Positions 2 through 7,810 of a stretch of 7,810 nucleotides of DNA are shown here, piece by piece (positions within the stretch are counted from its first letter, which is position 1; the number at the start of each line of letters is the position of its first letter). This stretch comes from Candidatus Sumerlaeota bacterium (lineage in GTDB: Bacteria; CG03; SLGR01): contig SLGR01000082.1 of the NCBI GenBank assembly GCA_007136585.1, positions 1 to 7,810 of the forward strand, given 5' to 3'. Made by a program: the position numbers and the translations under genes. A model generated the notes under the pieces. It searched no databases, was not told the DNA's origin, and saw only the letters and a program-made list of their open reading frames with translations.

Positions 2-3000
2 CTGAACTCCGCGTATTTCCGTCACCTTATAAGCAGGTTTGACCTTTCCCTTATCCAGGAATCGGGTATAGAGATCCTTCTTGATGTGAGAAAATTATCC
101 GGTATTTCCGAGGAAGACCTGGAGAATATTCCCCTTGACATGACCCTCATCCTCCCCGGTGATACCCGGGATATAGAAGAGATAGAGAGTTCCGGGAACC
201 AGATCAAGGTAGAGCTCCAGGAGGACGGAACCCTGATAAGGGTCTGGGGTTCGGACGGAAGAGAGCTCAGGGATACTGACCTTTCCGCTCTTCTCAACTG
301 GTATATATGCGAGCATTACGGGTACAGGGGCGATATTATAACAAGCCGTTACTCCAGCCCGCTGCTTGAACGGATAGCGCGGAGGTACGGTCTTGAGACA
401 AGTTTCTCCCATACCGGGGAGAATCACCTGATAAACCCCGAGATAAGCTGGAATGATTACCTGGCCCATATTATACTCCTTGCCGAGATTAAAGGAAGGA
501 CCGGGAGGAGCCTGGAGGAGAACCTCATAAGGATAAGCAGAGATATGGGCGGACCGGAGTACTCCTATGCGAGCAGTTTTAACGTTCATTACGAGGATTA
601 CGAAGAGATAAGAAAATTCTTTGAGAGTGAGAATATTGAACATACCGCAGGGTACGAGTATGCGGATAAAATAGAGCGTTTTGACCGGGGTATAAGGATA
701 GAGTATAAGGACGGAAGCTGGCTGCTGATGAGCCTGAGGGCCGATACAGTGGAGGTTTACTCCGAGGCGTTTGAGAAGAAGCGCGCCAGGGAGCTGGCGA
801 CCTCCTTTGAAAGTATGTTAAAAGACAGGGTGCAGCCTTCATTCTCTCTCAAACGCCTTCTTTCGCCGACACCTGTAAGGGTTGCCCTCATGGTATCGCT
901 TCTTAATATCGGTCTGGTGGGTCTCTCCATTATACTACCGGCCTTCTTTCCGGTTTTAAACTGGACCATATTCAGCCCGGTTCTTGCTCCCGTGGCAAAC
1001 CTTTTCTCTATGCTTTCCCCGTATTTTATTGAGAGACTCCCCTTTATAATGTCGGTATTTGCTTTTTATGCTCCCATGTTTACCGTGTGGTTTATCAGGG
1101 CTGCCTTCATGTTTTTTACCGCGAGGACTATGTGGGGGCAGGCGGGCAGGTACGAGCTTCATCCCGATATTGCGGAACTTCCCTCGGTAAAAGAAGGGGT
1201 CAGCCCGGATAAGGGCAAGTTCAGGGGTTTTGAATTTGTGGAGATAAAGGAAGACAGGCGCACCCCGTCAAAACTAAACGTAGCCGTTAACAAAGAGTAC
1301 TTTACGGCGCTTCCGCCGACCCTCCAGGTAATCTTCTACCAGCACGCATTCAGCGTTGCCAGGGTTCAGAAACTTATTCCCATACAGCTCCTGATGAAGG
1401 GGGTCTCGCGCACTCTTTCCTATTTTCTCAGGCTTATCATCAACCCCGTCATAATACATCCTTTTGCCGCGGTTGCGGATATATTTTACCTGGGGAAATG
1501 GATCAGAGAGAAGGAGAGCAAGAAGCCCGGCGCGGTATATTACTCCGGTTCAAAGATCATATGGCCGGAAGAGTACAGGGAGACGCTGGGTAAGAAATAC
1601 GATACAAACTGGACAACCGGAAGGGTAAAGAACTTCTCCGACAGGCCTTCCGGGGTCCCGGACGGAGACACCCTGTACCTTGACGACGGCTCAGTCATAC
1701 GTCTGGCCGGGCTTGAACCCGGTGAGATGAAGGCGGACGAGGAGGAGCCCGGGGCACGCGAGGCCAGGGATTTCCTGAGAGAAATGATAAGACCCGGAAT
1801 GGACCTTTTTATGGTAATCCCTAAAGACAACAGGGAGGATAAATACGGGCGCACGGTAGCTTACGTCTACGCCCCCGATTCGCAGGGGCGCCTGGTAAAT
1901 GTGAACCGCGCTATGCACGAACAGGGGCATAACAGGTATATTGACAGGGTAGTGAACTGGTATGGGATAAAATCAAGTATAGGGGAGGTTGTCGCAGAGC
2001 TGAAAGAACTTCCCGCGTACCTGGAGGCCCCCGCCTCGCTGAAATCCCTTGAGAGAGAGAAAGGGCTGAGCTACTATATTACCAACCCCCTTGAAATTTT
2101 CCGGGGGATTACCGCCCTCTTCTCTGTAAGCAAGCCAGCCGGCATTCAGGAAGAGGGCGAGGAGAAACTTTTTATGAGATCCCTTAAGGCCGCGCCCCTT
2201 GAGAGGGAAAAAGACGCGGAGATACTTGAGAATGCCGGATGGGATACGGGAACCCACAGTCGGGTCAGCCTGGGGAGCGGGTTTGATCCTTCCGGGATAA
2301 GCCCCGGCGGCAGGACCGGGGACCGCTCCAGTCTATATCTTTCCGGCACCGTCAGTATCGGTGATGGGTTCTTACTGGATGAAGATAAGATTTTTTCGGT
2401 TGAAAACTACGCGGGGGGGGAGTTTTCCGCCGGCGCGGACGTATCAGTAAAAGCCAATATTACCGTTACAATAGAGGGAGACGGAAGACTCAGTATAGAC
2501 GAAGGAGTAACCGCGGAGAATGATATGCTGATAAAAGTGCTCCCCGGCGAGAGAAAAAGAATGATGATGGTTGCCGGAGAAGCGGTGGTTCTTCCCGAGA
2601 ATATTGATCCGGAAGATTTCTCTTCCCACATAATGGGGATCCTGATGGGAAGGGAAAGCTGGGATGATATAGAGCCTCTTCTCAATGTTTACGGGTTATC
2701 TCCCGAGGCCTGCAGGAAGATATGGGAGTACTATAACTTTGAGGGGTACGAGGCGGTGAGTATCCCGAAGAAGACTTCCACTTCCATACCTTCTTTCACT
2801 CTTCCCAGGGCGATTGAAGAGGTTATCTCATCCGGTGGCGATCTTACATCGCAACAGATGGAATCGCTCACTGACAGACTTGAGAGCCGGATATTCCCGG
2901 ATCCTTCAAGAAAACGTTCCTGGTTTGTCAGGATGCTTCTTACAGAGGAGGAACGGACAGATCTTGCGGGTCTTATTGCAGAGACGGCGGGGATATGGCA

Positions 3001-6000
3001 TCTGATATCGGATAACAAGGATGAGTTTCCGGATGTAAAGAGCCTTATTATTGACGGGGTATCCCTCCTGGACCTGGACGGTGAGGATATAGAGGTTCTT
3101 ATGATAGTAAAGGGAGACGCGCAGCCGGAGGACCTCAGGCTTCGCACAGCCGAAGGAACGATCAGGATCAAGCGGGTCGGGGAGAAGTGGATTCAGGATA
3201 ACGAGTCCGGTGAAGGTCGGAACAGTTTCCTGACAGGTTTTCTTGCTACCGGTATAACGCTCTGGGGAGATAATTACACTTCTTACCTGAATACCCAGTA
3301 CTCCAGGGGGGCCTGGTCCAAGAATATTCTTCTCAGAGCGAAGGAGCTCATTGAGGATGCCGATGATAGCGCTCAGGGGCGCAGCAGGATCATATGGTCG
3401 CTTAAGATACTGGCGGCCCTTAACCCGATCCTGGATGTTGACGAGGTTGAGGACCTGGAGTTTGCGGAGCTTGAGGAACTCGCAGGGGAGTTCCTTGAAC
3501 TGACCAGGCTGCACCTTATTCGCCGGGATATAGACCGCGTCCTGGGTGAGAGTATCAAAAAGAACGTGGCGAAGTACGAGGAATCCCCCGGGATCGGCGG
3601 GGTAGGCGATATTGAGATACTTGAGAAAGAAGGGGAGCCTGAATGGGTTTCCCGGAGAATTTTAAAGGAGAGCAGGGACCTGGAACACGGGGAAGATTTC
3701 TATAATGAAAGAGTTGATAAGGCCCTGGCAGAGATGAGAAGAGTTGATTACCAAAGGTTCAAAGTCCAGAATGTTGATTATCCCCGGAGCCTTCCCGCCG
3801 GGAAACCTGTCCCGGTCTTTACGCTCCCCGGGGGCGCGGAGGTGGAGCTCACACTTAACATAGTAGATACGCCGCGCCGCCTTGAAGACCAGCGGCTTCT
3901 GGGGACCATTACCAGGGCCGGGCCTCTCAGCCAGGTCAATACCCTGGCGGACCACTATGAGATAAACCTTCAGAGCGCGCTTTTCGAGATGGATCCCAGG
4001 GCCCTTTCCATAGTTATCCAGTCACTTCTTGACCAGTTGAGACTCTCCGTCGCACAGGACCGCGCCTTATCCCATACAAGAAGTATCGAGGCAAACGAGC
4101 TTGCCAGAAGAAAGAGCGTCAATGACCGCCAGAGCGACGCCGAGTTCCTGCAGAAAGAGCTCAGCGATTACTTAAACGGCGTAAGAACATCTTTTCTTGA
4201 CCCCGAAGATATACAGTTTACAGACGGGGTAGCCGATATATCCGACCCGGAATCGCGGGTCCCCAGGATCGCGCAGGCCCTGGCGGAGTATAACCGCGCC
4301 TACGGCATAACCCGCCCGGTCCTTCTTGCCTCTTCCGGTGATGGTATGGAGTCAATGGGGCTTTTTGCCGATATCCTTGCGGCAAACGGCATAGAGGTCT
4401 CTTTTCTGGATAAGACGGTTTCGGGGAAAGCCTGGGAGAGTTTTGACAGGAGCAGTTACAGTTTTGCGGTATATTTTTCAGATGACAGGGTTTCGGTAAC
4501 GGGACCCGACGGCGGTATATCCGGGACTCTCTCAAATATACTCGCCATAGTGATGAACTCCGTGAGGTTCTATAAATACAGGGGGCTTGAAACACAGGTT
4601 CCCGGGACTGAGGAAGAGACTGAGAAAGGTCACCTGACACATATGGATGCTCCTGAAGAAGATCCGGTTTTCGGTTCCGATGAGATGAGGGAAGCTTTCA
4701 GGGAGTTTATTGAAACAGGGCATGCTCTTGTTGGAGAGGAGAAAGAGGAGAAACCCGAAACCCCGGCCCGGACACCGCTTGGGCTGAGGGGTATAAGCTT
4801 TGCTATCTCTACGGCGGTTCTTACTGTTTTTGCGACCGTGGCAGGGCTGAATCTCTTTGCCCCCCATATGATAACCATTCCGGGTAAAGAGCTTCTCACC
4901 GGGCTTATATACGCCTGTTTCATGTTCTTTGTCCGCAGCCCTGTCCTTTACGGTATAATAGGAAGCGCGGTAGGGTATTTTATAACCACGGCTTTTCTCT
5001 ACGCGTTCATTACTCCTCTCCGGCTTCTTGCCTACAAACGCGCCTTTCCGTTCTCAAGGAGAGGGGAGCTTATACCGGAGATAGAAGCTATGAGGGATGC
5101 CCCTGATACCGAGTGGACCATCCCCAATGAGTTCAACAGCTGGAGCTTCATATATATGTCAAAGGACGGAAGCGTTACAGCGTATAAGGAAGGGTTCAGG
5201 CATCTGCCCAAGTTTCTGCAGGCGTATATATACCAGCGCGAGATGACAGCCGATACTATTATAAACCGCCAGCTTGTCACCGTACGCTCCGTGCGCAGGG
5301 CCATACTCAGCACCAGGTTCTGGCTCTGGATGGTGCGGATACCGATTATAGAGCCTTTTGTGATAGTAAAGACATTCTGGAACTCACTCCGGTCTCTTTT
5401 TTCAAGAAAAGGGCTGGTTCTAGAGTCGGAGCTTGAACCTCAGCACGAGATAACCCTTGAGGACATAAAAGATAAATACGAGACTGAATGGGTTGATATT
5501 AAGAAAGTCAATTTCCAGAAAAAGCTTCAGCTTAAGGATAAACGCCTGGTTAAAGTCCTGGGGGTTCCTTCTGAAAGAGTGGCTTCCGCCGCCGGTATAT
5601 TCGCTGAGAGGAAGGCTCTTCTTCTTATCCCGAAAACCGAGAAGGATACTGAGAGGTTCCAGGCCTATGTATATCTCTCACCTGAAGGTGAACCCGGGAT
5701 AGAGCCTGAAAAGGTATCCCCGACCGAAGAGGTCTGGGTGAACTTTACTTCCGCGCACGTGGGATCCGGTCTTCTCAGGAGAGGAATAACCCCTGTCGGG
5801 GTCGACTCGCTTACCAGGGACGATGAACTCATTGATATAACGGATGTTCCGCCTGTGATAAGGTTTACCAGGGCTCAGCTGGAGAGTCTTGAAGAGGAGA
5901 CTCCTGTTCTTAAACCCGAGAACAGGCTTCTCGGATGGATATTCAGAGCCCTGGACAGTGTATCCGGTATAGGGCTCCTGGCCCTTGGGCCATATTTTAC

Positions 6001-7810
6001 ATATATGATATATGCGGGAAGTCCGTTTGGTGAAGTTGTCTCCGATGCGGCAGCGATCATTTCGTCTTTTATACTCTCCCCGGCTCTTGAGGGGCTTCTT
6101 CCCGCGGCATATGCGCTGGGACAGCTTTTTCTGAGCACAGCCGGACCTATGGCCCTTATATACTTCTTCAGCCGTCTTATGAGCAAGGCCGGGATATCCC
6201 TGCTTTTCGTGAGCCGTAAGGCGCGCGCAAAGCTCGGAGAGTTCAATATACTTCTGGAAAGGATACTTCAGACGGTTATAGCTCTCGGTTCGCTGAGATT
6301 GGCAGGCGTGGCGGTTCCCTGGGTGGCGGGGAGAGTGGGAGAGATATCCGACAGCAGGGATATAGAATCAGTCATAAGACACGGGCTTGGAAGCGGCGAA
6401 GATATGAACGATGCGATATACGGTACGATAGAGTTTAACGCTCTTCTCGCTGAAGAACTGAAAGACCTGGGGCTCAGGGAAATTGAGTTAAAGGGGGAGA
6501 CGGTTGACCTTCAGGAGATGCTTGACGATCTGGGGAGAAACGCGGCAAAGGATTCATTCGCAGGGGTATACTCGGTTCCGGGTTACCTTGACGCGCTTGA
6601 GGAATGGGCCCTTAAATGGGACCCCGTCCTAAACGCTGTAGCCACCGAACTGGGGGCTACTTACGAGACTAACCTTGAGGAGAAAATATACCAGCTCTTT
6701 CACGCGGATTTCACCCCGACTACGCTTGAGCACGTTCTGGGAGGGCAGCGGGGGCTGATGCTCTTTCTCCACCAGGTTGTAGCAGATATAGAGGCCTCCA
6801 GTATGGGGAGGCTCCAGTACGCGGTCGCTCATAACTTTCAGTTTACACAGCCTTTTATTGACAGTTTTGCCTATTACCCCCAGGAAGATTACGACGGGTA
6901 TATAATCCGCTTTAATAGTTATATAAAAGACGCTCTCGTTCTTATAACCGGGGAAGAAGACCTTGCCGCCTCTCTTGAGGAGACTCACCTTGATTTCAGC
7001 GGAAACCGCGAACTGGACGAACTTAAAAAAGATGTTCGGGCCCATATAAGGAGCATAGACGAGACTATGATGGGAGTGGATGATTTTATAGTCTCCCAGT
7101 ACAGCGATGACGGGGAAGAGGTTCCCGCTGCCTTCAGCCGCTACCGTTCGGGGGAGCTCTCGGCAATGGTAAGCGAAGATATAAGGAACGCCGAGACAGT
7201 ACAGGATCTTGTAAGCGTCTATGCCGAGGTAGGAGAGAGGGTCTCGGAGATACTTCACAGTATAGGGGATAATACCAGGGATCATTACAATACACTGCTC
7301 AGGTATAACCAGTATATGAGGATTTCCGGCCGGGGCGGGGAGAGTATCAGTGATCTTCTTGAGCTTCTTACGGGGGAAGAGTTTTCGGAGCTTGATTTCA
7401 CCCAGGCAACTCCCCCGGAAACCCCGGGAGAGTTCGGCGCGCGTCTCCTTGAACAGGCCGACGCCCTTGACGAGGTATTCTCACAGATCAGGGGCCAGGA
7501 AAATACTCACAGGCTGAGAGGTCTGATAGAATCAGATTACCTGTCAGGTATTGAAAATTATATGGAACAGGTTGAAACCATAGAAGAGTCCATAGAAAGG
7601 AACCTCCAGACCCTGGAGCATATAAAGAGCGACCGGGAGAGAGTAATAGAAGAGGCCCGCCAGGAGAAGGAAGATGCTATAAGGCAGGCCGAGCGGCTTC
7701 ACTGGTGGGAGTCCCGTATCGGGCGCCCGTCCCCCTCTTCACCGGCAGACCCGATTACAAAACAGGAGGCTGACAGGAACCTGGAGAGAACCGTAAGGGA
7801 TTTAAATGAC
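2..7810 (+). CDS. Internal part of a giant multidomain membrane protein (open at both ends)
   Basis: Codons starting at position 2 run for 2603 sense codons without a stop and are still open at the last base; the true start and stop lie outside the window. Codon choice is even throughout and no frame change was found, so this reads as one gene. Domains in order: phosphohexomutase II-IV remnant, membrane helices, protease-like remnant, SNase, beta-solenoid-like stretch, unassigned linker, phosphohexomutase domain I remnant, membrane helices, second protease-like remnant, second SNase-like domain, third membrane cluster, helical and coiled-coil tail. Only three cysteines occur (residues 103, 904, 1639). 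The protein is probably anchored in the cytoplasmic membrane by several helix clusters. Its overall function is unknown; the enzyme-derived parts are mostly degenerate, pointing to a structural or binding role with perhaps one live nuclease. The reading frame is nearly certain; the role is not. Confidence 0.96.
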   Translation, partial: MNSAYFRHLISRFDLSLIQESGIEILLDVRKLSGISEEDLENIPLDMTLILPGDTRDIEEIESSGNQIKVELQEDGTLIRVWGSDGRELRDTDLSALLNWYICEHYGYRGDIITSRYSSPLLERIARRYGLETSFSHTGENHLINPEISWNDYLAHIILLAEIKGRTGRSLEENLIRISRDMGGPEYSYASSFNVHYEDYEEIRKFFESENIEHTAGYEYADKIERFDRGIRIEYKDGSWLLMSLRADTVEVYSEAFEKKRARELATSFESMLKDRVQPSFSLKRLLSPTPVRVALMVSLLNIGLVGLSIILPAFFPVLNWTIFSPVLAPVANLFSMLSPYFIERLPFIMSVFAFYAPMFTVWFIRAAFMFFTARTMWGQAGRYELHPDIAELPSVKEGVSPDKGKFRGFEFVEIKEDRRTPSKLNVAVNKEYFTALPPTLQVIFYQHAFSVARVQKLIPIQLLMKGVSRTLSYFLRLIINPVIIHPFAAVADIFYLGKWIREKESKKPGAVYYSGSKIIWPEEYRETLGKKYDTNWTTGRVKNFSDRPSGVPDGDTLYLDDGSVIRLAGLEPGEMKADEEEPGAREARDFLREMIRPGMDLFMVIPKDNREDKYGRTVAYVYAPDSQGRLVNVNRAMHEQGHNRYIDRVVNWYGIKSSIGEVVAELKELPAYLEAPASLKSLEREKGLSYYITNPLEIFRGITALFSVSKPAGIQEEGEEKLFMRSLKAAPLEREKDAEILENAGWDTGTHSRVSLGSGFDPSGISPGGRTGDRSSLYLSGTVSIGDGFLLDEDKIFSVENYAGGEFSAGADVSVKANITVTIEGDGRLSIDEGVTAENDMLIKVLPGERKRMMMVAGEAVVLPENIDPEDFSSHIMGILMGRESWDDIEPLLNVYGLSPEACRKIWEYYNFEGYEAVSIPKKTSTSIPSFTLPRAIEEVISSGGDLTSQQMESLTDRLESRIFPDPSRKRSWFVRMLLTEEERTDLAGLIAETAGIWHLISDNKDEFPDVKSLIIDGVSLLDLDGEDIEVLMIVKGDAQPEDLRLRTAEGTIRIKRVGEKWIQDNESGEGRNSFLTGFLATGITLWGDNYTSYLNTQYSRGAWSKNILLRAKELIEDADDSAQGRSRIIWSLKILAALNPILDVDEVEDLEFAELEELAGEFLELTRLHLIRRDIDRVLGESIKKNVAKYEESPGIGGVGDIEILEKEGEPEWVSRRILKESRDLEHGEDFYNERVDKALAEMRRVDYQRFKVQNVDYPRSLPAGKPVPVFTLPGGAEVELTLNIVDTPRRLEDQRLLGTITRAGPLSQVNTLADHYEINLQSALFEMDPRALSIVIQSLLDQLRLSVAQDRALSHTRSIEANELARRKSVNDRQSDAEFLQKELSDYLNGVRTSFLDPEDIQFTDGVADISDPESRVPRIAQALAEYNRAYGITRPVLLASSGDGMESMGLFADILAANGIEVSFLDKTVSGKAWESFDRSSYSFAVYFSDDRVSVTGPDGGISGTLSNILAIVMNSVRFYKYRGLETQVPGTEEETEKGHLTHMDAPEEDPVFGSDEMREAFREFIETGHALVGEEKEEKPETPARTPLGLRGISFAISTAVLTVFATVAGLNLFAPHMITIPGKELLTGLIYACFMFFVRSPVLYGIIGSAVGYFITTAFLYAFITPLRLLAYKRAFPFSRRGELIPEIEAMRDAPDTEWTIPNEFNSWSFIYMSKDGSVTAYKEGFRHLPKFLQAYIYQREMTADTIINRQLVTVRSVRRAILSTRFWLWMVRIPIIEPFVIVKTFWNSLRSLFSRKGLVLESELEPQHEITLEDIKDKYETEWVDIKKVNFQKKLQLKDKRLVKVLGVPSERVASAAGIFAERKALLLIPKTEKDTERFQAYVYLSPEGEPGIEPEKVSPTEEVWVNFTSAHVGSGLLRRGITPVGVDSLTRDDELIDITDVPPVIRFTRAQLESLEEETPVLKPENRLLGWIFRALDSVSGIGLLALGPYFTYMIYAGSPFGEVVSDAAAIISSFILSPALEGLLPAAYALGQLFLSTAGPMALIYFFSRLMSKAGISLLFVSRKARAKLGEFNILLERILQTVIALGSLRLAGVAVPWVAGRVGEISDSRDIESVIRHGLGSGEDMNDAIYGTIEFNALLAEELKDLGLREIELKGETVDLQEMLDDLGRNAAKDSFAGVYSVPGYLDALEEWALKWDPVLNAVATELGATYETNLEEKIYQLFHADFTPTTLEHVLGGQRGLMLFLHQVVADIEASSMGRLQYAVAHNFQFTQPFIDSFAYYPQEDYDGYIIRFNSYIKDALVLITGEEDLAASLEETHLDFSGNRELDELKKDVRAHIRSIDETMMGVDDFIVSQYSDDGEEVPAAFSRYRSGELSAMVSEDIRNAETVQDLVSVYAEVGERVSEILHSIGDNTRDHYNTLLRYNQYMRISGRGGESISDLLELLTGEEFSELDFTQATPPETPGEFGARLLEQADALDEVFSQIRGQENTHRLRGLIESDYLSGIENYMEQVETIEESIERNLQTLEHIKSDRERVIEEARQEKEDAIRQAERLHWWESRIGRPSPSSPADPITKQEADRNLERTVRDLND
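14..817 (+). other. Domain: degenerate phosphohexomutase (PGM/PMM) domains II-IV, copy A
   Basis: Residues 5-272 follow the order of the alpha-D-phosphohexomutase family. Domain II-like: Y-F-R-H-L-I then 'SGIEILLD' (residues 21-28). Where the family has its metal-binding D-x-D-x-D loop there is Q-E-D-G-T (73-77), followed by 'GSDGREL' (83-89). Domain III-like: 'TSRYSSPLLERIARRYGLE' (114-132) matches the usual T-x-x-S-S-x-L-L-x-x-I-A-x-x-Y-G pattern, and H-T-G (137-139) sits where T-G-F-K is expected. The sugar-recognition G-E-E-S-G loop is missing; the chain passes directly to the kinase-like helix 'DYLAHIILLAE' (153-163) and 'GRSLEENL' (168-175). Domain IV-like: 'DGSWLLM' (237-243) and 'VEVYSEA' (250-256), but the phosphate-binding R-P-S-G-T-E-P loop is replaced by L-M-S-L-R-A-D. 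It is almost certainly inactive as a mutase. Domain I would lie upstream of the window. The family call is by eye but rests on several ordered landmarks. Confidence 0.72.
875..1120 (+). other. Membrane helix cluster A (about three helices)
   Basis: Residues 292-373 are strongly hydrophobic, with likely helices near 292-316, 321-343 and 347-373. Breaks are marked by prolines and by the charged pair E-R at 344-345. A basic stretch (K-R at 284-285, R293) sits just before the first helix and R376 just after the last, which favours a cytoplasmic location for the preceding phosphohexomutase-like region under the positive-inside rule. Helix number and orientation are inferred by eye. The cluster sits at the same place relative to the downstream protease-like and SNase domains as the cluster at residues 1597-1674. 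Confidence 0.8.
1127..1492 (+). other. Domain: protease-like remnant plus following membrane helix, copy A
   Basis: Residues 376-497. A soluble stretch of about 60 residues leads to 'LPPTLQVIFYQHAF' (437-450), then an amphipathic helix and a hydrophobic helix (472-497). The order helices, soluble part, 'LP-x-x-LQ-x-x-I-x-x-H' and a further helix recalls membrane zinc proteases of the M48/M56 kind, in which this region carries the H-E-x-x-H zinc motif. Here the aligned residues are H-A-F-S-V (448-452): one His remains and the other ligands are absent. In copy B the same columns read R-E-M-T-A, so the first two consensus positions survive separately in the two copies. If related, it has lost zinc binding. 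This family link is weak; the similarity to copy B is much firmer. Confidence 0.35.
1598..1966 (+). other. Domain: SNase (thermonuclease)-like fold, copy A, mostly intact active site
   Basis: Residues 533-655. The staphylococcal nuclease order is clear: D-G-D-T (554-557), 'DGSVIRLAGLEPGE' (562-575), a helix 'ARDFLREMI' (588-596), 'DKYGRTVAYVY' (613-623), and 'VNVNRAMHEQG' (632-642). Set against S. aureus nuclease, D21 corresponds to D556, R35 to R567, E43 to E575 and R87 to R617. D40 appears as E572, a conservative change in a calcium ligand, and T41 as P573. SNase domains cut DNA or RNA, or serve only as binding modules (as in Tudor-SN). This copy keeps the arginines and the general-base glutamate, so activity is plausible but not shown. 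It is embedded between membrane helices, unlike the usual secreted single-domain enzyme. Confidence 0.85.
2330..2551 (+). other. Short beta-solenoid-like stretch
   Basis: Residues 777-850 show alternating hydrophobic residues with G/D turns: 'LYLSGTVSIGDGFLL' (778-792), then 'GADVSVKANITVTIEGDG' (811-828), 'LSIDEGVTAEN' (830-840) and 'LIKVLPGE' (843-850). The run '-V-x-x-K-x-x-I-T-V-T-x-x-G-x-x-x-L-x-I-x-x-G-V' resembles the C-terminal beta-helix cap of UDP-glucose pyrophosphorylases, which would fit with the adjacent phosphohexomutase remnants because the two enzymes act in sequence in UDP-glucose synthesis. The nucleotidyltransferase core of that family is not visible in the window. It could equally be an unrelated beta-rich segment. 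Confidence 0.3.
2552..4162 (+). other. Unassigned soluble linker region of about 540 residues
   Basis: Residues 851-1387 separate the two composite modules. I recognise no family. What can be seen: mixed helix with charged and polar residues; a segment with strand-like pattern at 1008-1060 ('SLIIDGVSLLDLDGEDIEV' at 1014-1032 and 'GTIRIKRVGEKWI' at 1052-1064); an acidic helical run at 1141-1185; and a small beta-like piece near 'VPVFTLPGGAEVELTLNIVD' (1270-1289). Helical sequence at 1325-1390 leads into the phosphohexomutase domain I remnant. No membrane helix, signal peptide, nucleotide-binding loop or cysteine cluster was found. The region has no counterpart after copy B, where membrane cluster C begins instead. 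Confidence 0.6.
4163..4579 (+). other. Domain: degenerate phosphohexomutase domain I, copy B
   Basis: Residues 1388-1526. Landmarks in family order: 'RIAQALAEY' (1422-1430), the helix that opens domain I; 'RPVLLASSGDGM' (1438-1449), where the family has V-x-x-G-x-D-x-R; 'ILAANGIEVSFLD' (1458-1470); 'SFAVYFSDDR' (1487-1496); and 'VTGPDGG' (1499-1505), which matches the end of the active-site region. The catalytic T-A-S-H-N-P loop, bearing the phosphoserine, reads Y-F-S-D-D-R, so a serine may be kept but the surrounding signature is gone. Domains II-IV do not follow; an acidic, Pro/Glu-rich linker (about 1534-1590) leads straight to membrane helices. It cannot be an active mutase by itself. Confidence 0.65.
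4790..5023 (+). other. Membrane helix cluster B (about three helices)
   Basis: Residues 1597-1674 contain hydrophobic stretches near 1598-1621, 1629-1649 and 1650-1673. Basic residues flank both ends (R1590, R1596; R1676, K1679-R1680), consistent with membrane anchors. The preceding 55 residues are acidic and rich in Glu, Thr and Pro, like a flexible spacer between the phosphohexomutase remnant and the membrane. Position and spacing match cluster A. Confidence 0.8.
5039..5389 (+). other. Domain: protease-like remnant plus following membrane-proximal helix, copy B
   Basis: Residues 1680-1796. A soluble part with 'WSFIYMSKDGSVTAY' (1714-1728) leads to 'LPKFLQAYIYQREMTAD' (1735-1751), then a basic amphipathic helix and 'WLWMVRIPIIEPFVIVKTFW' (1775-1794), a borderline membrane helix broken by prolines. 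The latter parallels 'NPVIIHPF' of copy A. The place of a zinc-protease H-E-x-x-H is taken by R-E-M-T-A (1746-1750): only the Glu is kept, whereas copy A keeps only the first His. Both copies share the LP-x-x-LQ and Y-Q landmarks. If derived from an M48/M56 protease it is a pseudo-enzyme; it may instead be a family of its own. Confidence 0.35.
5471..5791 (+). other. Domain: degenerate SNase-like fold, copy B
   Basis: Residues 1824-1930. Recognised mainly by alignment with copy A: 'KYETEW' (1825-1830) against 'KYDTNW'; 'LKDKRLVKVLGVPSE' (1844-1858) against 'LDDGSVIRLAGLEPGE'; 'LLIPK' (1874-1878) against 'MVIPK'; 'ERFQAYVYL' (1884-1892) against 'YGRTVAYVY'; and 'VWVNFTSAHVGSG' (1911-1923) against 'VNVNRAMHEQG'. 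D-G-D-T is missing, R35 has become Lys and the calcium ligand D40 has become Val; R1885 may keep the position of R87. Nuclease activity is therefore unlikely. An insertion rich in Glu and Pro (1895-1910) lengthens one loop. It may serve as a binding or structural domain. Confidence 0.55.
5927..6337 (+). other. Membrane helix cluster C (about four helices)
   Basis: Residues 1976-2112 hold hydrophobic segments near 1984-2005, 2013-2036, 2040-2058 and 2084-2108. Between the third and fourth is a basic loop with R2059-like positions and 'SRKARAKLG' (2071-2079), a likely cytoplasmic loop by the positive-inside rule. The cluster starts directly after the A-L-x-S-V-S landmark; after the same landmark in copy A there is no membrane segment. 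It could be the start of a further module whose later part is not recognisable, since no protease-like or SNase motif follows within the window. Confidence 0.75.
6338..7519 (+). other. Helical, charged region of unknown function
   Basis: Residues 2113-2506 follow the last membrane cluster. The sequence is predominantly of helical character with many Glu, Asp, Leu and Arg. Segments with some order include 'MLDDLGRNAAKDSFAGVY' (2173-2190), 'TLEHVLGGQRGLMLFLHQVV' (2241-2260) and 'YYPQEDYDGYIIRFNSYIKD' (2291-2310). A His-containing pattern (H2237, H2244, H2257, H2277) is spread out and matches no metal motif I know. No family was recognised. Confidence 0.5.
7520..7699 (+). other. Predicted coiled coil
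   Basis: Residues 2507-2566 are free of Pro and rich in Glu, Arg, Gln and Lys with hydrophobic residues at heptad-like spacing, including 'YMEQVETIEESIERNLQTL' (2520-2538) and 'RERVIEEARQEKEDAIRQAE' (2545-2564). This suggests an elongated or oligomerising helix. It ends at W2568-W2569 and is followed by a Pro/Ser-rich turn (2574-2584), after which helical sequence resumes to the window edge. Confidence 0.6.

Follow-up and report, generated by a model that had tools for sequence, protein, structure and literature searches.

Some of the largest genes known in bacteria are the giant genes of Omnitrophota and Elusimicrobia. Omnitrophota carry giant open reading frames (ORFs), such as that of 39,678 aa in 'Ca. 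Velamenicoccus archaeovorus', for which predation or host association has been proposed (PMC10066038). Giant genes are also reported for Elusimicrobia and CG03 (as cited in PMC12057145), and Elusimicrobiota are enriched in huge proteins to which no function has been assigned; for the huge proteins of these phyla no clusters of orthologous groups could be assigned except in Planctomycetota (PMC11573180). Here we analyzed a stretch of 7,810 nucleotides (the window), which is the entire contig SLGR01000082.1 (C166) of a Candidatus Sumerlaeota bacterium genome (GCA_007136585.1, G000; a 1.88-Mb bin of 257 contigs, completeness 88%). The window comes from the interior of a giant gene, one of several in this uncultured, Elusimicrobia-related bacterium, a kinship that we infer solely from the label of the same-order metagenome-assembled genome (MAG) JAFGSA01 (G003; 'Elusimicrobia bacterium' isolate Zod_Metabat.862). 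Within the window lies an old internal duplication of a membrane-plus-core segment and its linker.

With the giant ORFs of Omnitrophota the genes studied here share very long single frames, transmembrane (TM) helices, small-genome candidate bacteria as carriers, poor conservation between lineages and a possible surface role. They differ in that the sister frames of the window hold central-metabolism enzymes with catalytic residues kept, a distinction from V. archaeovorus that is drawn by description. The likeness to the giant genes of Elusimicrobia and CG03 and to the huge proteins of Elusimicrobiota lies in the relative JAFGSA01, which is labelled Elusimicrobia and has frames of the same size class, while the domain order and enzyme content seen here are not described for the latter (PMC11573180). 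Our search of the literature, which left most subscription papers and preprints outside its reach, yielded no account of this domain order or of central-metabolism enzymes strung into chains. The statement of the sequence-only reading that no described family has this order is fair as far as the order is concerned; giant genes as such, however, were already described in Omnitrophota and Elusimicrobia (PMC10066038, PMC11573180, PMC12057145).

An ORF scan identified a single open frame of 2603 aa at nucleotides 2-7810 of the forward strand, to which all features of the window given below also belong, with both ends open and neither start nor stop codon. Its GC contents at the three codon positions are 0.57/0.39/0.58, few Pfam domains are annotated in it, and a scan of the genome contigs with the window protein returned zero relatives. 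Giant ORFs are marked by an uninterrupted frame >20 kb (about 6,700 aa); the gene of the window is truncated on both sides at 2603 aa, and homologous frames in JAFGSA01 reach 13,409 aa. Instead of being translated as a giant gene, the frame might be in decay or a product of faulty assembly, as the lost phosphohexomutase loops described below and the short contigs, with most fragments truncated at both ends, could suggest. However, uninterrupted frames of up to 40 kb occur in the independent MAG, codon usage of the giant frames in the source genome is native (correlation of relative synonymous codon usage with ordinary genes, 0.98), a phosphoenolpyruvate carboxykinase (PEPCK) in a sister frame is conserved, and a head domain is conserved across four genomes. 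We consider decay or artefact very improbable.

The internal repeat and its relatives

Hydropathy alone predicted TM helices at residues 294-365, 1593-1666 and ~2016-2110. The hydrophobic helices preceding core copy 1 span residues 291-366 (nucleotides 872-1099) and those preceding core copy 2 residues 1590-1668 (4769-5005). Core copy 1 (residues 375-520, 1124-1561) is followed by a shared linker reading KYDTNW..VKNF (residues 521-552, 1562-1657), and core copy 2 (residues 1678-1813, 5033-5440) by the corresponding linker KYETEW..KVNF (residues 1814-1845, 5441-5536). Eight landmarks, in an order common to both stretches and 1268 to 1301 residues apart, had been listed in the sequence-only reading; the order was confirmed, and the measured offsets run from 1304 to 1268 (1304, 1304, 1298, 1298, 1293, 1270 and 1268). 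The significant self-alignment that it anticipated was also obtained. Residues 270-720 matched residues 1570-2000 by BLASTP with E 2e-5 and by local Smith-Waterman alignment (BLOSUM62) with a score of 103, compared with 41 ± 7 for composition-keeping local shuffles and a top score of 85 among 500 of these. Profile-profile comparison with homologues added gave a probability of 91% (E 9e-7) over 183 columns covering the membrane region and the core.

Such similarity might also arise by convergence of hydrophobic helices or biased composition, and the membrane part on its own was indeed matched by 219 of 1000 shuffles and is thus not significant. The soluble core and the linker, however, are each significant alone. 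The core (376-520/1668-1812) was matched by none of 1000 shuffles and none of 1500 windows taken from other giant frames, the linker (505-552/1795-1845) by one of 1000 shuffles and none of 1500 such windows. Since the profile comparisons agree and a relative carries such copies as well, convergence is largely refuted and we give it hardly any weight. The SNase part alone was equalled by 100 of 1000 shuffles (not significant), and the phosphohexomutase regions of the two copies showed no mutual similarity in the piecewise shuffle test or in profile comparison. The duplication is therefore real, yet smaller than the large composite module first claimed: the core and linker stand on their own and the membrane part with homologue profiles, the two copies lying 1268-1304 residues apart, while the SNase and phosphohexomutase parts show no significant similarity of their own.

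The core had been read as a protease-like remnant. With the pieces scanned separately, it matched no Pfam peptidase family even at a cut-off of E 5, and the HExxH motif of M48/M56-like metalloproteases is absent, the suggested site reading IFYQHAFSV and YIYQREMTA, so that the protease label was dropped. Joining the core to a recurrent domain of the giant frames, HELNE (see below), was likewise rejected at a profile probability of only 0.2%; two copies in the sister fragment C6 lean both ways (core, 69%; HELNE, 27%).

In JAFGSA01, giant frames of 13,409 aa (5' open) and of 11,860 and 9,931 aa (3' open) were found. Residues 66-644 of the window match the 9,931-aa frame (E 5e-20), and in the 13,409-aa frame residues 22-500 and 1234-1747 find their counterparts in unchanged order. 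The core profile detected three copies in this latter frame, at 621-742, 2028-2151 and 3740-3861, the first of which (622-730) reached iE 1.7e-7 with a seed excluding it. Conversely, a seed from JAFGSA01 only recovered window core copy 1 at 1.5e-6 and copy 2 at 0.04, and the top score of the final core profile among 704 control ORFs was 0.017; because of these last two values, single weak core matches, e.g. in C6, are tentative.

In a six-row tree, window copy 2 grouped with two of the JAFGSA01 copies, with a support of 95 for the core alone and of 73 once the membrane part was included; copy 1 fell with the rest. The two copies of the window thus belong to two classes that are both present in JAFGSA01, and this small tree suggests that the duplication predates the split of these giant-gene families.

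Phosphohexomutase and nuclease parts of the cassette

Residues 57-273 (nucleotides 170-820) align with a phosphohexomutase profile over the last part of domain II and on through domain IV (hhalign probability 97.7%, E 1.3e-12, 214 columns), and NCBIfam TIGR03990 gives weak matches in the window and in the JAFGSA01 frame C42. Read against the full version in the sister fragment C163, this member of the alpha-D-phosphohexomutases (PF02878-PF02880, PF00408) differs in that its catalytic loops are gone: the metal, sugar and phosphate loops are lost, EDGTLIR, PEISWND and SLRADTV of the window aligning to DGDADR, GGEESAH and RLSGTED. A remnant had been claimed before both copies; the one preceding copy 2 (residues 1417-1475, 4250-4426) is possible, the profile matching with a probability of 54% and E 1e-4 over 59 columns.

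A staphylococcal nuclease (SNase) domain was identified at residues 553-645 (1658-1936), with the motifs DGDT, RLAGLEPGE and DKYGR. It scores above the curated cut-off of PF00565 (E 4.1e-5, 24.4 bits vs a gathering cut-off of 21), and when the SNase copies of giant genes, this one included, were combined in a profile, it matched ordinary SNases with a probability of 98.6%. Visual comparison of RLAGLEPGE and DKYGRTV with the known motif showed residues corresponding to Arg35, Glu43 and Arg87 to be kept, with Glu at the position of Asp40. Besides this replacement, the domain differs from other members of the family in being embedded in a giant frame behind membrane helices and in that its second copy is unrecognisable: the stretch aligned to it (residues 1846-1900, 5537-5701) reached an SNase probability of only 0.3-0.4% by hhalign. 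An SNase-like domain is thus supported in copy 1 only, and the proposed loss of catalytic residues after duplication applies to the phosphohexomutase remnant but not to this SNase.

Further downstream, iterated HMM (hidden Markov model) searches delineated a conserved domain 'e' at residues 980-1123 (2939-3370), which recurs in the same order in the JAFGSA01 giant frames C42 (9491-9638) and C25 (2599-2711). C42 also shows the order phosphohexomutase, TM helices, core, SNase and e found in the window.

Heads, enzymes and cysteines of the giant frames

A conserved head of ~700 aa, lying behind an N-terminal hydrophobic segment that is followed by an A-x-A-like motif, was found in four of the 16 genomes of the phylum, with six in the source genome, eight in G001, three in JAFGSA01 and one in G004. 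Several of these heads are preceded by a membrane-anchored-looking protein of ~180-210 aa with an N-terminal hydrophobic segment (e.g. G000:C24 2039-2635, G003:C42 35320-35916 and G001:C41 2024-2575), and a response regulator is sometimes found nearby. In two unselected contig blocks of the source genome (C1-C31 and C150-C172, 387 kb), edge-reaching frames of >=900 aa account for 23% of the bases, a figure that may include some ordinary long genes.

Duplication has also occurred more recently. Residues 744-1893 of C163 and 1073-2216 of C148 are 77% identical across 1156 aa, a cassette duplication within the source genome, and C93 and C148 are 47% identical over ~700 aa. The old copies in the window and the young copies elsewhere fit repeated in-frame cassette duplication, and the growth of the giant gene by this route, as the sequence-only reading had proposed, is borne out by the self-alignment, the three-copy array in the relative, the tree and the younger 1156-aa duplication. 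The mode of growth is thereby visible from old cassette copies common to families and a young copy within one genome. Enzymes within the giant frames are joined by the recurrent ~170-aa domain HELNE (a working name; VHE...RHELNEY motifs), which occurs at C163 773-945 and at least 17 other places in G000, G001 and G004 and matches no known family.

Several sister fragments hold Pfam enzyme domains. C163 contains phosphohexomutase domains I-IV and a GTP-PEPCK (residues 196-745 and 2090-2635; L088:2-7906, - strand), C148 a Glu/Leu/Phe/Val dehydrogenase, MTTB, a GlpX-type FBPase and PPDK, C115 PPDK, a PEP-utilising domain, a metallophosphatase and a methyltransferase, C226 SecA domains and GH130, C12 an M3 peptidase and HEAT repeats, C13 an asparaginase and a protein kinase, and C24 an adenylate kinase, GH130 and a GyrA C-terminal propeller. 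The JAFGSA01 frames carry VanW, PLD, starch synthase, alpha-amylase, a superfamily-1 helicase and GH94, and several motifs, e.g. helicase and kinase P-loops, look intact. Pfam matched nothing at E 1e-4 in two 5000-aa giant stretches of G001 and G004, so that enzyme content is not uniform across giant frames; the scarcity of domains holds for the window and these long stretches but not for C163, C148, C115 and C226.

PEPCK was found in the source genome only on C163, where the contig end cuts it at model position 304, and as a weak match on C93 from position 310, which by these coordinates would fit one gene split between contigs; this sole-copy result is to be read with the bin being incomplete and some relatives being without PEPCK. 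The C163 PEPCK is 45-50% identical to the stand-alone enzymes of relatives; it covers 158 of the positions invariant in these and retains 129 of them. PPDK and SecA are also present as ordinary-sized genes in the source genome. A second, diverged SecA-like region lies at G000:C226 12796-13995 (+) inside a 6000-aa frame, and the ordinary 953-aa SecA is on C1.

The giant frames are depleted in cysteine roughly tenfold, with a median of 0.12% in 21 fragments of the source genome; for the soluble proteins of that genome the value is 1.02%, for the signal-peptide-like ones 0.35%. In C163 only 3 cysteines occur in 2635 residues, one of them in the PEPCK P-loop and another where a GAPDH C-terminal-like domain has its catalytic residue; the GAPDH-like match amounts to 22-25% identity in a region picked by hand, and a clear NAD-binding half is lacking. 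Judged from these sequences, cysteine loss appears to spare the catalytic cysteines.

Possible fate of the giant chain

The near-complete enzymes lying end to end could alternatively belong to a polyprotein, one chain that is translated whole and then cleaved to release each enzyme, the membrane-core cassettes marking sites of processing or insertion. The 129 of 158 invariant PEPCK positions would be in line with this, as would Shine-Dalgarno-like sites before internal ATGs, which are not enriched (3.1% vs 3.5% in ordinary genes) and therefore give no indication of internal translation starts. The core, on the other hand, has no recognisable protease motif, no conserved cleavage site turned up, though none was searched for, and separated cytosolic enzymes would not be expected to be so cysteine-poor. 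We regard a polyprotein as unlikely.

Instead, we consider it probable that the giant gene from whose interior the window comes was enlarged by successive in-frame duplications of large cassettes and that its chain would be exported or anchored. The repeat, its age relative to the two families and its embedding in a giant-gene set are the observed basis of this reading. The repeat unit would consist of a phosphohexomutase remnant, membrane helices, core, linker, an SNase or its remnant, and a spacer with domain e. Giant-gene products would comprise a signal or anchor helix and the conserved ~700-aa head, followed by strung enzyme and spacer domains, the chain being exported through the envelope or anchored there, as the N-terminal segment, the membrane helices and the cysteine loss suggest. 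The repeated membrane-plus-core cassettes may serve for anchoring or spacing, the phosphohexomutase that has lost its catalytic loops is predicted to be a binding or scaffold fold, and SNase copy 1 is a predicted active extracytoplasmic nuclease.

Several points weigh against this reading. The tree consists of six short rows with moderate support; AlphaFold models of the two copies, for which these were the sole alignment rows, had mean predicted local distance difference test scores of 44 and 41 and are too poor for a fold comparison; and the N-terminus of the window's gene lies outside the contig, which ties it to the conserved head by association only. Moreover, the cysteine depletion could have another cause than export, and the ATP- and GTP-dependent cytosolic enzyme types and the SecA-like region in sister frames are ill-suited to export.

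More tentatively, the lineage might make exported or membrane-anchored giant chains of functional metabolic enzymes, among them several of gluconeogenesis (phosphohexomutase, GAPDH C-terminal-like, GTP-PEPCK, FBPase and PPDK), from which selection would have removed nearly all cysteines except the catalytic ones, with the cassettes of the window as anchors or spacers. By analogy with Omnitrophota, a part in predation or host association is possible for these giant genes. The conserved enzymes and a cysteine loss that spares catalytic positions make the question of giant proteins testable through localisation, processing and enzyme activity.

Near the end of the window, a coiled-coil-like segment at residues 2477-2576 (nucleotides 7430-7729) resembles the start of the sister fragment C6 (HMM match, iE 2.8e-40).

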